Assembly (NCBI GenBank): GCA_004369045.1 | Contig: ML213526.1 | Location: 68,382-132,381 of the forward strand | DNA from: Heliocybe sulcata | Lineage: Eukaryota; Basidiomycota; Agaricomycetes; Gloeophyllales; Gloeophyllaceae | Reading direction: 5' to 3' | Length of the DNA: 64,000 nucleotides | In this document: piece after piece, positions 5,443 to 62,008 of the stretch | Position numbering within the stretch: the stretch's first letter is position 1 | Layout of the letters: the number at the start of each line of letters is the position of its first letter | The notes under the pieces: model-generated | What the model saw: only the letters and a program-made list of their open reading frames with translations | Database searches by the model: none | What the model was told of the DNA's origin: nothing | Program-made: the position numbers and the translations under genes

Positions 5443-6761
5443 ATGTCGTCCCTCGACCGCAAAGACCGCGTTCCGTCCGTCAGCGAGGGTTCCTCTCGTG
5501 GGAACGTCGTGGACCACGATGCACCGCACGGTACGCACAGGTCCTCTCGTTCTTGCCATGTCTCTCAACCATATCGCTGGTTGCGTCAGTGACTACAGAT
5601 GGCGAGCCAAGGCAGTTTAACCCAGCTAAAGCAAAGAGCCATGTCATCACAGTGCAGCCATTGAAGCGCAGCGAGATGCAGGTGCGTGGGCTTCAAGCAG
5701 GCAATTTGAGACATATTCTGAACCGCTATGATAGCCTTCATATGCCCAGGATCTTGGGACCGGAGAAGTCCAGCATGGCATCTACGGGAGTATGTTACAA
5801 TGCCTGGGGTCAGTTGTCGGCCTCTGTGGCGCAATTCCTTGCTGCCCGTTCCCGAACCCGTACCGAAACGTTCAGCAAGGTACGTCAGGTTCGACTGACT
5901 GCGTCTGGTCGCAGTGCTAATGCGGTGCGATAGGCTCGGTGGGCCTTGTTTCTCGCTTCGGACAGTTCTACAAGTCCGTCGACCCGGGTCTGGTGAACGT
6001 GAACGTATGCACGGAATCCTTGAAGGTTGTGGACGTCAAGATCCAAATCAGCCCAATTGGCAGACAGAAAGTCATCACGCGCGACAACGTCGACGTCGAG
6101 ATGTAAGCACGCTCCACACCAGTGTCATCTCAAGTTTACTCACCCCTCCTCCAGCGACTCGGTCATCTACTTCCAAATCAACAACCCCTACCGCTCCGCC
6201 TTCGGCATCACCGACCTCCGCCAAGCCCTCATCGAGCGCGCGCAAACCACCCTGCGGCACGTCGTCGGCGCCCGCGCCGTCCAGTCCGTCGTCACCGAGC
6301 GCGAAGCCATCGCCTTCGAGATCGCCGAGATCGTCGGCGACGTCGCGGACAGGTGGGGCGTCACCATCGAGGGCATCCTCATCAAGGACATCATCTTCTC
6401 CCCCGAGGTCTCCGCCTCCCTCTCCTCCGCCGCGCAGCAGAAGCGTATCGGAGAGAGCAAGGTCATCGCCGCGCGCGCCGAGGTCGACGCGGCGCGGCTG
6501 ATGAGGCAGGCCGCGGATATTTTGGCCAGTCCGGCGGCCATGCAGATCAGGCAGCTCGAGGCGCTCCAGCAGATGGCGAAGAGCGCACAGAGCAAGGTCG
6601 TGTTTGTCCCGATGCAGCTGCAGAGCGATGTTATCGGGCAGACGGGTGCGGGCCCCTCTGGCGAGGGCTCATCGGGTGCGAAGTTGATCTCGAGCGAGTC
6701 TGGAGAAGGTATTGGTGCTGCCGGTCGGGCCGGTGTTCTTTCCAGCATGTCAGATATCTGA
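5443..6761 (+). CDS. Stomatin/band 7 (SPFH) membrane scaffold protein
   Basis: This SPFH-domain protein assembles into oligomeric scaffolds on membranes, probably mitochondrial or plasma membrane lipid domains. The exons 5443-5530, 5599-5681, 5735-5879, 5934-6102 and 6155-6761 give 363 residues in one frame. The N-terminal part has the fungal stomatin signature VQPLKRSEMQ then PSYAQDLGTG. A Cys/Pro-containing membrane hairpin (GLCGAIPCCPFPNPY) follows, then the SPFH domain beginning GSVGLVSRFGQFYKSVDPGL. The C-terminal half contains the highly conserved block KRIGESKVIAARAEVDAARL and ADILASPAAMQIRQLEALQQ. The tail is a Gly/Ser-rich variable end. The start was chosen because the 5530/5599 splice restores the conserved frame; this first exon is the least certain part. 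A stomatin-like assignment is firmer than any particular organelle. Confidence 0.9.
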
Positions 6762-28222: not shown

Positions 28223-30715
28223 TCATACCGACACAGACTTACCTGTTTGATTAGAAGAGCTATCCATTGTACCCTTTTGTGTGGTAATCAGGGCTGGGAA
28301 CATCACAGACTCGGAAGATGGTCGGGAAGTGGATGGATCCGGTACGTCATGTGTGTTATCTGCACGGTGCGCACTGCTGCATCCTGTTGCCCCGCTCACC
28401 GTAGACCGTTGTCCCCTGTTCCGTGGCCGTGGAACAGGCCGCTGCCTCTGTGGTTCATCTTGTCCTGCTTCCGCTTGCTGTTGCTCAATGCTCGGCGCCG
28501 GTTTTCTTCCCTTCCTGCCTCGTCTCGTGGCAACTTGAGCGGCCTTCCTTGCAGCTTCCTCCGCCTCACGCAGCCTCTTCGTGACCAATCTCTGAGCCTC
28601 CTTCAATTTCCGCATCCGAGCCTGCTCTAGGCGCTTTTGCTCCTGCTTTGCCTGGCGGTCGCGGGCTTTCTCCTCCTTTTGCGCCTCTCTCTTAGCCTCA
28701 GCGATTGCACGCTTCTCGTCTCTGTCATACTCAAGGATCTTTGTCTTCCAGTGCTTGAATTTTGGTGCGGCCTCCTTGAAGACATCCTTCATTGCAGATT
28801 CCCAGTCAGCTCTTGCAAGATAGTCGAGTGCTTCACTGCTGGTCATGTGCCGTCCATGTGATGTATCGAAGCGCCGTGGTTTCTTGTTCTCTTTGTGGAA
28901 GGCTTTCTGTCGTAAACCGTCCATTCTCCCGCTCCATGAGTACCATCGTAGCATGGGCAGACCTCATTTGGCAGTAAGTGTTTCTGATAATCTCTTCCAG
29001 CTCTGAGATATGGCTGCGGAGGTGCTCGCGTCACGCATAGTATGGAGGTGGCGGTGGAATAGGGGTTAGATCCGGCAGCGGAAGGGCGTGGACTGTTTCG
29101 ATTGATCCAATCTGATCGTGCGCTCCACTCGAAGTATCGATAGGTATGGGAGCTGCAGGAGTATAGCTGAATACTGCCGGCGAAGTGAGGGTCTCGGGGG
29201 CGGGAGTCGAGGGTTCCGCAGAGCCTGTCACGATTTGAGGTGAGTGCTGTCCAGGCTCGAGGATGGCTGTCGTAACAGCACTGACAATGGCAGCAGATTC
29301 TATGGCAGCAGCACCACCACCACCGCGGGAACTCTGGTCTGTAGACTGGATGGGTGCGAGGGGCAGGGCAGGTTGTGTAGTTGTCAGTAGTGATGGATCG
29401 AAAGCTGCTGTCGGTATAGCATCCGGATTGAATGGCCAAATACCAGTTCTGGCAAAGGCTGCTTGGATAGTGGATGCCTTCAGAGCACGCTGCCGAGCGT
29501 TGTCGTAGTATGCCAATAGGTTATGCTTGTTGATGACAGTCAGCTCCGCAGATGCAGTGTTCACTTCTGCTTTCCAGGAGCGTGCAAGGGGACCAAATAC
29601 GCCAACATCGCATGGCTGTAGCACGTGTGTCGTGTGTGAGGGCAGATGATGTTATGATCCGCTGCAAATTTGCAGAATTTGTAGCTGTAATGGGAGTTGT
29701 GGCCGTCAAGAATGAGTAATCGAGCATGACCCTCAGGATCCCGGGTTGCCGGCTCAAAATCTCGCTGCAGCCACTTGAGTCCAAGATCCTGGTCCGTCCA
29801 GCCTTTCGGCGAGTGCGAGATACTGCAAAGGCCATAAGTAAGCTCGCAGCGATACAAGATTTTCACTGTCAAAACATGCCTGGCTTTACACGGATTATTC
29901 CGCCCCCACTCCAAATCCATATGATGACCCTGATATATCACACTTGGATGAAGAGCTCTCCCATCAGCACAGATCGCCTCGATAATGGTGACCAGCTCTC
30001 GATCTCCGTTTTCGACTTGATAAACTTGCTTTTGATCGCGATCCACAAAGGCGGCTATGCGCTCACCAATCCCCCGTTGCACCCCCTTTTCGTCCATGTT
30101 CCACACATTTCGGGGAAGGATACAGAACTTCTGAAGAATCTCACCAAGCATATTGAAATAGTTCCGGACTGTTGTAGGGTTGAGTGCACGGGCCCGGCAC
30201 TGTTCAAGTCCAGTTGTCCAGCGGACCTTAAGCTCAGGATGTCGCCTGCGGAATCTCTTAACCCAGCTTTGCCCGATATGCATCTTGCACAGATCAGCCG
30301 CACAGTCAATAATCGTGGAAGCTGACATAGGTAAGCCACGCCGGCCCATTATCTTGATCCAGTCGACGAGAGCAGCTTCCGCCTCTGAGCACAGCTTCTG
30401 CTGTGGCTCTCGTGCTTTGGCTTTTGTGCTCTTGCCATTCAGTCTATCCGACAATGTGCTCTTTGAGACATTGAAGGCTTTCGAAGCCTCCCGGATGGAT
30501 AAATTGGGCTGACCGAGTGCATTCATCCCCGCGCATTCGATTGCGGCAACAGCGAGAGTGATGCGATCTTCATAGTCACTAGAGTCGACAGAGGCTGCTG
30601 GTCTGACAGGGGGAGTCATTTCAGATGTGAAGCTCTTGCAATTATGGCATAGACAGGCTTGAGGAGGGCGGGAGGGAGTAGTAGGGCATCGAGTAACAGG
30701 CTGCGCGATATACAA
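28223..30715 (-). pseudogene. pogo-type DDE transposase, disrupted
   Basis: The N-terminal part has a psq-like helix-turn-helix (LSIREASKAFNVSKSTLSDR) and a CENP-B/Tc5-like second HTH (RGLPMSASTIIDCAADL, SWVKRFRRRHPEL). The DDE_1 catalytic core shows the acidic residues in VWNMDEKGVQRG, LLILDGHNSHYS and QPCDVGVFGPL. A probable intron with a GC donor lies at about 29818-29876 between NPCKA and ISHSPKGW. The reading frame shifts near 29640, just before LQPCDVGVFG, and breaks again near 29030 before the Lys/Arg/Ala-rich C-terminal coiled region. It is therefore probably inactive. The likely start is either 30715 or an inner ATG near 30619 (MTPPVRPAASVDSS). Confidence 0.88.
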
Positions 30716-30895
30716 CTTGTTACATACATTTAGCCATAGCCGAGCCTCATTTTCTCCTTCCCAGTATCTTCATCAATCGCACTCAAGAGCTCCGGCACAT
30801 CAGGCATGGGTAGCGACCACGATGGAAACGAATATCCGAACCTCGTGTCGCCACCCAAAACACGCCTCTCCGCAACAGGACCTACCACGTCGATT

Positions 30896-31733: not shown

Positions 31734-33885
31734 ATGTCTTCCAGCTTGCCTTTCATTCCTCGTAAAGTCGCCAGAACCAGCAAAGCAACGTCCACCGCCT
31801 CCTCCTCAGGCCCTGCAGTCGTCGAAGCAGCGACCGCCCGTGAACCAGGCGGCGTCGACCAAGCTGGAGACAACTCGACGAGCCGCACGACGAAGGACAA
31901 AGGAAAGCAAAAGGAGGGATACAAGACACTCTCAGAAGAAGACTATGCGAGTCTCATCTCGCTGTCCTTGTCCGACTACGCGTTATGGTCCAACCCTGAG
32001 ATACGTATGGCGATAGACACGCACCCGGATGGATGTACGTTCCTCTATATCCCTAGTCAATGATACGAGTTCGTCTGATGCTGACGCGCAAGTCATTTCC
32101 CTTAGCGATCTAATGAGCTACTCTGCGTATCTGAATAGCTTACCAGCAGCGAGCGAAGGCACTCTCGCCAAAGCCATCCGCACCCACGCCTCTGACGTGC
32201 TGGAAGTACGCATGGTGGTGTCTGCACCAGCGAAGGGCAACTGGTATAAACGAGGTGTAGGGAACGTGAAAGATGTTGGAGGAGGGTATGAAGTACGGCT
32301 GAAGAACTGGAAAGACGTGATTAAACGCGTTGGAGAGATGACGAAGGAGCTATGGGACAGGCGGACAGTCTACGTGGTGCGTTTCTAACTCCATACATGC
32401 TCCACAACGGAACGCTAATCGGAGTATTAGGAAAATATCCCAGTGCGATATCGTAGTGTAGCCGGGATAGCTCGCTTCATCAATGCTCTTCTCCATCCCA
32501 TAACAAACCCGTGCACGTCTGTACAACACGTCTCACTCCCTGGCCACCACCCCAACGCGAAATGCAAAGAGTTTGCTCTGGCTAGCCTCCAATCAGAAGA
32601 TGAGCTGATTCATATGACGAAACATTGGCCCTGGCACACAAACGCGCCCTCGGACTCAGGCGAATCCGAAGCAGAGGAAGCAGAAGAAGTATCGGAAGCA
32701 CGCAAATTTGGGCTGAGGTGTACGAGTAAGGAAAGGTGGGAGGAGCTAGGGAGGGAGTATGTTGCATATCGGGAGCACTTGTTGCAGCAGGTTGCTGGGA
32801 CTGACGATCAGAATGTCATCGGCCCTGAGGATGCAGGACCTTCACGTGTCATAGGCGATGAGACCCACGAGCAAATGGCTAGAACGGATCTCCAATCTTT
32901 GAGGGATCATCCGCAAAACTGCCTCGTTTTCATACGGAACGTCCATCAATCGACGAATAAAACCACCCTTCGGACGCTTTTCTCCACAGCCTTTGCGACT
33001 TTGGAGGATAGCAACGGGATTGACTACGTCGACTATAATAAAGGCATGGACGCAGTATGCTCGTTTGCTTCCTTGCCTATTTTCTGTTGTAATCTCACAC
33101 GCTTCTCTCTCGTAGTGCTACCTGCGCCTCAAATCACCGACTCACGCGTCCCGCATAATTGCTCACTTCACCTCTCATCCAACGCAGCAATCCGATGGGC
33201 TCGATAGCACGGGTACTCCAGCAGAGGAAACTGACAGGGTAATCCACGCGGAACTGGTAACCGGCACGCGAGAGCAGGTTTACTGGGCAAAGGTGCCGGA
33301 GAAGGTGAGGCGAGAGGCTGTTATAAGACTGCAGTCGGGAAGAACCCCTTCACCACAAGCAGCTCCAGAACATCCGAAGGCCGCTGCTGTCTCAAGTCCC
33401 ACAAGTTATCCACAAGGCTGCTTGGTATTTGTACGCAATATACATCCGTCTACGAATAAGACCGCGTTACGCTTGCTTTTCGCTTCTGCGTTCGGTGAGG
33501 ACGAGGACGGCACTGATTATGTTGACTTTAGCAAGGGGATGGATACGGTACGCTTCATTCTCTTGTCATACGTATTCATTATCTGACAGCAGCAATCTAT
33601 GCTCAGTGCCACCTCCGGCTGAAATCGCCCTCGCACGCGACCCGCCTTGTTTCCTATTTCACTTCTCATCCAACCGTTGGAGGCAACGGCTTGGGTAGCA
33701 CTGATGCTCAGCAGGGTGACAAGGCGATTGAGATGGAACTGGTCACTGGCAAACGGGAGGAAGTGTACTGGGGAAAGGTGCCGGAGAAGGTGAGAAGGGA
33801 GGCTGTTGCGAGAGCGGTCAGTGGAGTGGAGGTGGGCGGGGATGAGGAGGGGGAGAGAAAGAGGAGAAAGCGGCGGCGAAAGTGA
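31734..33885 (+). CDS. LARP7-like La-module protein with two tandem xRRMs
   Basis: Exons 31734-32034, 32093-32376, 32431-33054, 33116-33547 and 33607-33885 give 639 residues. A La motif (residues about 65-145: SLSDYALWSNPEIRMAID, DGFISLSDLMSY) is followed by an RRM (about 185-260: VYVENIPVRYRSVAGIARFI). After a linker with an acidic segment come two copies of a C-terminal xRRM: about 357-474 (CLVFIRNVHQSTNKTTLR, IDYVDYNKGMDACYLRLKSP) and about 500-620 (CLVFVRNIHPSTNKTALR, TDYVDFSKGMDTCHLRLKSP). Each copy contains an intron at the same codon. LARP7 proteins bind polymerase III 3' ends and structured RNA; the fission yeast member Pof8 is a telomerase subunit. A basic Arg/Lys tail ends the protein. 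La-related proteins normally have one xRRM. Confidence 0.88.
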
Positions 33886-43529: not shown

Positions 43530-44513
43530 CTACTCCTTCGCATCTCCGGTCTGGTCTCCAACAACGTCCGCACCAGGCAGCAACCACCTAAACGTCACAC
43601 TCACCCTTGTCCCTCTCTTCACCACTTGCGTCCGACCATCCTCCCCGAGCACCACATCCTCCGACAGCTTTTCGATCCCATGTGTCCACTCGTACCTCGC
43701 CGCGCCGCACATAACGATGACACTCCTGGCTGGGAGGTACAGCGCATGCCTCTCTTTACTCGCCCCCGTACGAGCAAAATGCATGGCACACCCGCTTCCC
43801 ATACTGACACCGACAATCCCGTCCCCAAACCTATCAAGCAGGTCGACATGAGGTGTAATCCCCTCGCCAGGCTCGTACAGATTCACGATCGCCTGCCGCG
43901 CTCTGCCCCGTGCTGCGAACAGGAGGTCGTGGGTTTCCTCCGAGAGCTTGGGACGCAGGAGGCCGGACAGTGCAGAGATCAGATCTGATAGGAAGGGCGG
44001 TAGGGGTGAGGCGTCTGGGCGGGAGAAGAGCATTATCTGGTTGGTGAGTGGGTTAGTGAAGTACGTGGACATGCATTGGGCGAAGACTTCGTCGATGAGC
44101 GGCTCGGGGAGGAGAAGACATGGGTCAAAGGTGAGCCCCGGGATTGACGGTGCCGTGAGGGATGCAGGTTCTAGTTCTATGACAGCTATCGATGGGATGG
44201 GCTCAGCTCGTGCTTCTGAGGGAGCATCCGCACTTGAAGAAGCCGCGATTGGTTCGGAATCAAGAGAGCCGAAGAGCGAGTCGGTGTCGCAGTCATCGTC
44301 GAGGTCCAGGGGGGGCAAGTCAGCGAAGATCAAGGGTATTGGGGTTGTGGAAGGCGGATTCTCCTCTTTACTTCGTGTCCCCGCAACCGCCGGGATCGAG
44401 ACAACAAGCTTGTTGCGAGTCCGTTTCCCACTCTCTGTACGTAGTGCATCCCCGGCTTCTACAAGCTTCCGCTTCACAGCGGTCGAAGGAATGAATTGAT
44501 AGTCATCGCCCAT
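43530..44513 (-). CDS. AlkB-like Fe(II)/2-oxoglutarate dioxygenase
   Basis: Single exon of 327 residues, starting MGDDYQFIPSTAVKRKLVEA. The first 120 residues are low complexity, with basic KRTRNK and acidic LDLDDDCDTD stretches. The catalytic double-stranded beta helix follows: AIVNLYEPGEGITPHVDLLD supplies the HxD iron ligands, GAARYEWTHGI the distal His, and RVSVTFRWL the 2-oxoglutarate-binding Arg. This order is characteristic of AlkB homologs (ALKBH family), which repair alkylated nucleic acids or modify RNA; the R-W ending resembles the ALKBH4/7 or fungal AlkB-like groups. The substrate is not predictable. The family has a wide range of N-terminal lengths, so the disordered start is not unusual. 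Confidence 0.87.
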   Translation of the reverse strand: MGDDYQFIPSTAVKRKLVEAGDALRTESGKRTRNKLVVSIPAVAGTRSKEENPPSTTPIPLIFADLPPLDLDDDCDTDSLFGSLDSEPIAASSSADAPSEARAEPIPSIAVIELEPASLTAPSIPGLTFDPCLLLPEPLIDEVFAQCMSTYFTNPLTNQIMLFSRPDASPLPPFLSDLISALSGLLRPKLSEETHDLLFAARGRARQAIVNLYEPGEGITPHVDLLDRFGDGIVGVSMGSGCAMHFARTGASKERHALYLPARSVIVMCGAARYEWTHGIEKLSEDVVLGEDGRTQVVKRGTRVSVTFRWLLPGADVVGDQTGDAKE

Positions 44514-44677
44514 GATCCGCCGGAGCCTTCTGTATTGGAGACTGGTAGCTTAGCTAGATATGAGGGTTTGAACTCTGCTTGGCGATGTTGTGGCAATTCA
44601 GGAAGAGACGCGCCACTTCAAAATATTTATTTAATTTGTAATTATAATAATAATTTTTAACTTACTGTACCCGTCAC

Positions 44678-59711: not shown

Positions 59712-61866
<2,155 letters not shown>

Positions 61867-62008
61867 TCCAGAACAAGGCTCGGACAAAAGCCAAACTAGC
61901 GCAAGCCAAATGACGCGAAACAACGCGCCAAGGAAGCGTGGGGTAACGCGTCGAATGGGTGAAGCACGTGATAGCGTGTCGCAAAAGCGAAAAGATGCTC
62001 ACCCCTTA

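Follow-up and report, generated by a model that had tools for sequence, protein, structure and literature searches.

The gene discussed here raises the question of whether a LARP7-like protein of Heliocybe sulcata carries its C-terminal xRRM twice, how such a second copy would have arisen, and what it might serve. Proteins of the LARP7/Pof8 type assist in assembling telomerase and the splicing RNA U6. The gene lies in a 64-kb window, by which the whole stretch of DNA that was analysed is meant. A survey of its predicted features, together with those of other ORFs in the window, is compiled in Table 1.

Gene model and the two C-terminal domains

The five predicted exons are separated by four short introns (58, 54, 61, and 59 nt), with GT-AG at all four pairs of predicted splice sites. 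From the N- to the C-terminus, the protein comprises a putative, divergent La motif, RRM1, a linker that is in part acidic, xRRM copy 1, a Pro/Ala/Ser-rich linker, copy 2, and a basic tail, which, judging from its residues, is likely to serve in nuclear localisation or RNA contact. Elsewhere in the window, the DDE match of a Tc5/pogo-like transposase ORF, upstream of this gene, covers profile positions 2-100 of 177, and its frame may be shortened or may continue past an intron. The Prohibitin/Band 7 ORF appears by eye to be part of an intron-containing gene, and the protein kinase gene is, again by eye, presumably CDC7-like.

Table 1. Features of the predicted LARP7/Pof8-like gene and other ORFs (positions within the 64-kb window).
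Feature	Positions	Strand	Basis or remark
Predicted LARP7/Pof8-like gene, five exons	31734-33885	+	639 aa, spliced frame open throughout
Exons 1-5	31734-32034, 32093-32376, 32431-33054, 33116-33547, 33607-33885	+	Predicted splicing
Putative divergent La motif, about residues 70-140	31941-32211	+	Intron 32035-32092 within; pairwise score against 4wkr fragment
RRM1, about residues 178-254	32323-32607	+	Intron 32377-32430 within; pairwise score against 4wkr RRM1 fragment
xRRM copy 1, residues 354-478	32905-33340 (intron included)	+	PF19977, Pof8 xRRM match
Copy 1 Y394-V-D396 (Y/W-X-D/Q, RNP3-type)	33025-33033	+	Aligns with Pof8 YID
Intron 3, phase 0, in copy 1 after GMDA	33055-33115	+	GT-AG, predicted
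Exon 4, 432 nt, both ends in phase 0	33116-33547	+	Copy 1 second half, linker, copy 2 first half
Copy 1 R407	33125-33127	+	Aligns with Pof8 R343
Inter-xRRM linker, 21 residues (479-499), Pro/Ala/Ser-rich	33341-33403	+	Sequence
xRRM copy 2, residues 500-620	33404-33825 (intron included)	+	PF19977, Pof8 xRRM match
Copy 2 Y538-V-D540	33518-33526	+	Sequence
Intron 4, phase 0, in copy 2 after GMDT	33548-33606	+	GT-AG, predicted
Copy 2 R551	33616-33618	+	Aligns with Pof8 R343
Basic C-terminal tail GERKRRKRRRK	33850-33882	+	Sequence
Prohibitin/Band 7 ORF	6024-6761	+	PF01145
Tc5/pogo-like transposase ORF	29561-30769	-	DDE_1, HTH_Tnp_Tc5, HTH_psq
AlkB-like 2OG-Fe(II) oxygenase ORF	43530-44549	-	PF13532
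Protein kinase gene, at least two ORFs	59712-61998	-	ORF 59712-60464 matches Pkinase

The xRRM has been described by a Y/W-X-D/Q motif in strand 2, an arginine in strand 3, and a C-terminal helix bearing charged or aromatic residues (PMC8881624). In Pof8, Y330 and R343 are given as the equivalents of RNA-contacting residues in p65 and LARP7, and mutation of either one led to shorter telomeres (PMC5805695). Among the Pfam-A families, the xRRM profile PF19977 matched the predicted protein of H. sulcata in two stretches (E 2.2e-90), where a sequence-only reading of this DNA had already placed two tandem xRRMs, and PF08777 likewise matched in two stretches. With each domain taken alone, PF19977 gave 157.9 bits (E 1.5e-46) for copy 1 and 137.4 bits (E 3.4e-40) for copy 2. 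Both copies carry the Y-x-D motif and the strand-3 arginine, with a spacing of 13 residues from Y to R as in Pof8 Y330/R343, and both have the C-terminal helix, as far as this may be read from weak models. The latter were obtained with AlphaFold2 for each xRRM from two-row alignments and are of low confidence (pLDDT 62.0 and 64.2); in both of them the RRM order is followed by two C-terminal helices, the 18 residues beyond YW in each copy being modelled mostly as helix.

Along these lines, sequence comparison with the PDB put the Pof8 xRRM (6tzn) first for copy 1 (E 2.6e-10) as well as for copy 2 (E 7.4e-6), followed weakly by human LARP7 in both cases; in the list of copy 1, an unrelated adenylosuccinate synthetase (E 0.041) ranks between Pof8 and human LARP7. 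For either copy, Foldseek, run with the weak models against 350,542 PDB chains, returned the Pof8 xRRM entries (6u7v/6tzn) at the top, human LARP7 (5knw) in third place, and ordinary RRMs close behind. The matches to human LARP7 and Tetrahymena p65 comprised 5knw, 6d12, 4eyt, and 4erd for the model of copy 1, and 5knw for that of copy 2.

Origin, age, and asymmetry of the duplication

The two copies are identical at 78 of 121 aligned residues (64.5%), close to the two thirds estimated earlier by eye, and their coding DNA is 66% identical. Introns 3 and 4 interrupt them at the equivalent codon and in equal phase, exactly after GMDA and GMDT as had been read from the letters, with splicing as predicted. 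By simple arithmetic, independent introns would coincide with a chance of ≈ 1/363 (121 aligned codons × 3 phases), and the coincidence in codon and phase most likely means that the intron is older than the duplication. Since the intron was kept in both copies, the duplicated unit was most likely genomic DNA rather than a processed copy, and a retro-copy origin of the second xRRM is rejected. When the cores of introns 3 and 4 are aligned, 154 of 1000 shuffles score as high as the real pair, so that their homology is read from position and phase only. Because exon 4 runs from the middle of copy 1 to the middle of copy 2, the breakpoints of the duplication probably lay in coding DNA near the linkers. 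The gene model, the position and phase of the introns, and the alignment of the copies thus support the earlier proposal that an exon-intron-exon unit was copied within the gene.

Synonymous divergence between the copies is near saturation (pS 0.68, dS about 1.8), whereas nonsynonymous divergence amounts to pN 0.23 (dN about 0.27), giving a pairwise dN/dS of about 0.15 as an average over both copies. Together with the unalignable introns, these values point to an old, constrained duplication and not to a doubled assembly; the duplication reads as one that was kept by selection. Some synonymous signal is left, as the same codon is used at 37 of the 76 positions sharing a degenerate amino acid, where the codon usage of the gene would predict 26.5. 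The longest stretch of DNA identity shared by the two copies measures 21 nt (33289-33309 and 33774-33794), a length reached by 38 of 5000 codon shuffles, and may hint at past local gene conversion, or at constraint.

With Pof8 as the single outgroup, 34 residues of copy 1 and 25 of copy 2 are identical to the Pof8 xRRM; ten such residues are kept by copy 1 alone and one by copy 2 alone, suggesting that more change has accumulated in copy 2. The scores of human LARP7 (5knw), which is slightly nearer to copy 2 (17.5 bits) than to copy 1 (16.3 bits), run against this asymmetry. It could be argued that copy 2 is a tolerated leftover, which folds but has no distinct binding, and that copy 1 does the work; the greater distance of copy 2 from Pof8 and its lower score on the Pfam xRRM would suit such an explanation. 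A useless copy would, however, be expected to decay, whereas dN was held to 0.27 at the high dS given above (a pairwise figure that averages both copies), and the Y, D, and R that were checked are all retained in copy 2. We regard redundancy as an alternative to be reckoned with, albeit a rather unlikely one.

Exon 4 is symmetric, so that its skipping would leave the frame intact and yield an isoform of 495 amino acids, in which one complete hybrid xRRM is rebuilt from halves of both copies. Such an isoform, made from some transcripts beside the double form, would turn the locus into a switch. This symmetry, on the other hand, arises automatically whenever a domain split by a phase-0 intron is duplicated, and what speaks for the switch is frame arithmetic. 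Furthermore, fungi generally make little use of exon skipping, which argues against this explanation. We regard it as improbable.

La module and genomic context

The score of the putative La motif against the La-module fragment of human LARP7 (4wkr) was reached by 1 of 2000 shuffles, and that of RRM1, which follows the La motif, by 0 of 2000. Pfam-A gave no La match for the La motif, the La-module piece alone likewise remained without a Pfam match, and a La-family search of the genome missed the La motif of this gene and found contigs C18 and C21 instead. In the PDB, a long N-terminal query matched one distinct sequence up to E = 10, namely the LARP7 La module 4wkr, weakly and in two collinear stretches (E 0.064); a trimmed La-module query returned nothing up to the same limit.

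In genuine La proteins (LARP3), the La motif carries aromatic residues that bind uridylate, in what is seen as an FYF/FWF segment. At the aligned place, EFYFADSNL is found in a separate gene (L001, contig C18) and DFWFGDANL in 4wkr, compared with SLSLSDYAL in the protein under study. With its FYF segment intact, L001 is taken as the genuine La, and another La-motif protein is encoded on contig C21. The loss of a segment kept in both 4wkr and L001 fits a place of the H. sulcata protein in the Pof8 branch. The La motif of Pof8 itself was reported as detected by profile search, with the oligo-U residues mostly not conserved (PMC5805746), and a survey of fungi described the La module of Pof8 as inferred from secondary structure only (PMC8917221). 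The LARP7-like identity that had been proposed is thus upheld by the Pfam xRRM, by sequence and fold matches in the PDB that are led by Pof8 and include LARP7 (the folds from weak models), and by the comparison of the La module with 4wkr. A genuine La protein would have the order of La motif, RRM1, and C-terminal RRM in common with it, but this assignment is very unlikely, with the FYF segment residing in the C18 gene and the xRRMs matching Pof8 and LARP7. Less probable still is an artefact of assembly or gene model, an assembly error being rejected because the copies are too diverged (66% identity of coding DNA, pS 0.68 with synonymous sites near saturation, introns aligning no better than shuffles), and splice sites and phases are clean.

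In the assembly of 31.6 Mb, searched exon by exon (a procedure that can miss diverged copies), no other xRRM locus was found; all four matches fell within this gene in both the protein and the PF19977 searches, as did three of three matches in the La-module search. The Pfam profile RRM_3 found nothing in the exon-wise search of the genome and its controls were silent too, yet the spliced protein matches RRM_3, so that an exon-wise null counts as weak evidence. A Bin3/MePCE homologue, the genomic correlate of Pof8, is encoded on contig C14 (PF06859, matched with E 1.9e-18 in a single stretch that covers profile positions 5-56 of 109); among 472 fungi surveyed, Pof8 without Bin3 was reported in only four species (PMC8917221). 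TERT is present as well, with two stretches of the telomerase RNA-binding domain. The assembly holds no run of five TTAGGG repeats, but it may lack chromosome ends, and this result is uninformative on telomere type. Outside the genome, plasmids queried with copy 1 gave no relatives, and none of the 103 pattern stretches in viral_contigs or of the 69 in genome_contigs was confirmed; these collections are viral and prokaryotic by description, so their nulls say nothing about the frequency of the architecture among fungi.

Possible roles and comparison with known systems

We consider it fairly probable that the gene encodes a LARP7/Pof8 orthologue with a tandem-duplicated xRRM, in which copy 1 would keep the ancestral role and copy 2 would provide an additional or wider RNA contact. 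In fission yeast, the xRRM of Pof8 was reported to be required for binding of telomerase RNA (PMC5805695), Pof8 promotes the binding of Lsm2-8 to this RNA (PMC5805746), and U6 is the target of a Bmc1-Pof8-Thc1 complex (PMC10484740). The H. sulcata protein could, by analogy, be a nuclear chaperone in the assembly of telomerase RNA and/or U6, acting with the Bin3/MePCE homologue and with Lsm2-8 as a probable further partner. Copy 1 would perform the ancestral stem-loop binding, and copy 2, held on the flexible linker, might contact a further stem or a different RNA, such as a U6 guide snoRNA. This contact would bring higher affinity or the bridging of two RNA elements, such that both xRRMs and their linker may form a clamp on a pair of stems within one RNA, or tether two separate RNAs to each other. 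The first suggestion of the sequence-only reading, that two RNA elements could be bound, is plausible; the second, a dimeric telomerase interaction, found no support. It is rather doubtful that each xRRM has one structured RNA of its own and that two are bound at once (U6 and a guide snoRNA, or two telomerase RNA domains). If true, bridging that may go through Lsm2-8 in the single-xRRM Pof8 would be built into one polypeptide. With two xRRMs in cis, one nearer to Pof8 and one more diverged, the RNA or the step served by each becomes open to a separable test.

With two C-terminal xRRMs, this protein departs from the studied LARP7/Pof8 relatives, which have been described with one. The earlier remark that known La and LARP7 members have a single xRRM agrees with the descriptions of Pof8 and LARP7 drawn upon here (PMC5805695, PMC8917221, PMC8881624, PMC10484740, PMC5805746). 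Among the literature matches listed, there was no two-xRRM LARP7. Given a dS near saturation, the double-xRRM architecture is probably common to related fungi, and it may already stand in domain databases, unremarked.

Descriptions of Pof8/Lar7 from S. pombe give it a divergent La motif, an RRM1, and an xRRM at the C-terminus (PMC5805695, PMC8881624, PMC10484740, PMC5805746). The protein from H. sulcata would share with it a divergent La motif without the uridylate-binding residues, and shares the RRM1, the C-terminal xRRM with Y-x-D and R, and the Bin3 homologue in the same genome (PMC8917221). In contrast to Pof8, for which a single xRRM without an extended final helix is described (PMC8881624), there are two xRRMs here, each with 18 residues after YW that are modelled, at low confidence, as largely helical, and a basic tail follows. 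Genuine La, here represented by L001, likewise combines La motif, RRM1, and C-terminal RRM, but keeps the FYF segment that the present protein lacks. With human LARP7 and Tetrahymena p65, the protein has in common a putative La module and a C-terminal xRRM with an additional helix, the latter read from weak models; the La-motif aromatic residues of human LARP7 (4wkr) are gone, and 7SK has been stated to be confined to animals (PMC10484740). Both LARP7 and p65 are described with one xRRM (PMC5805695), compared with two in H. sulcata.
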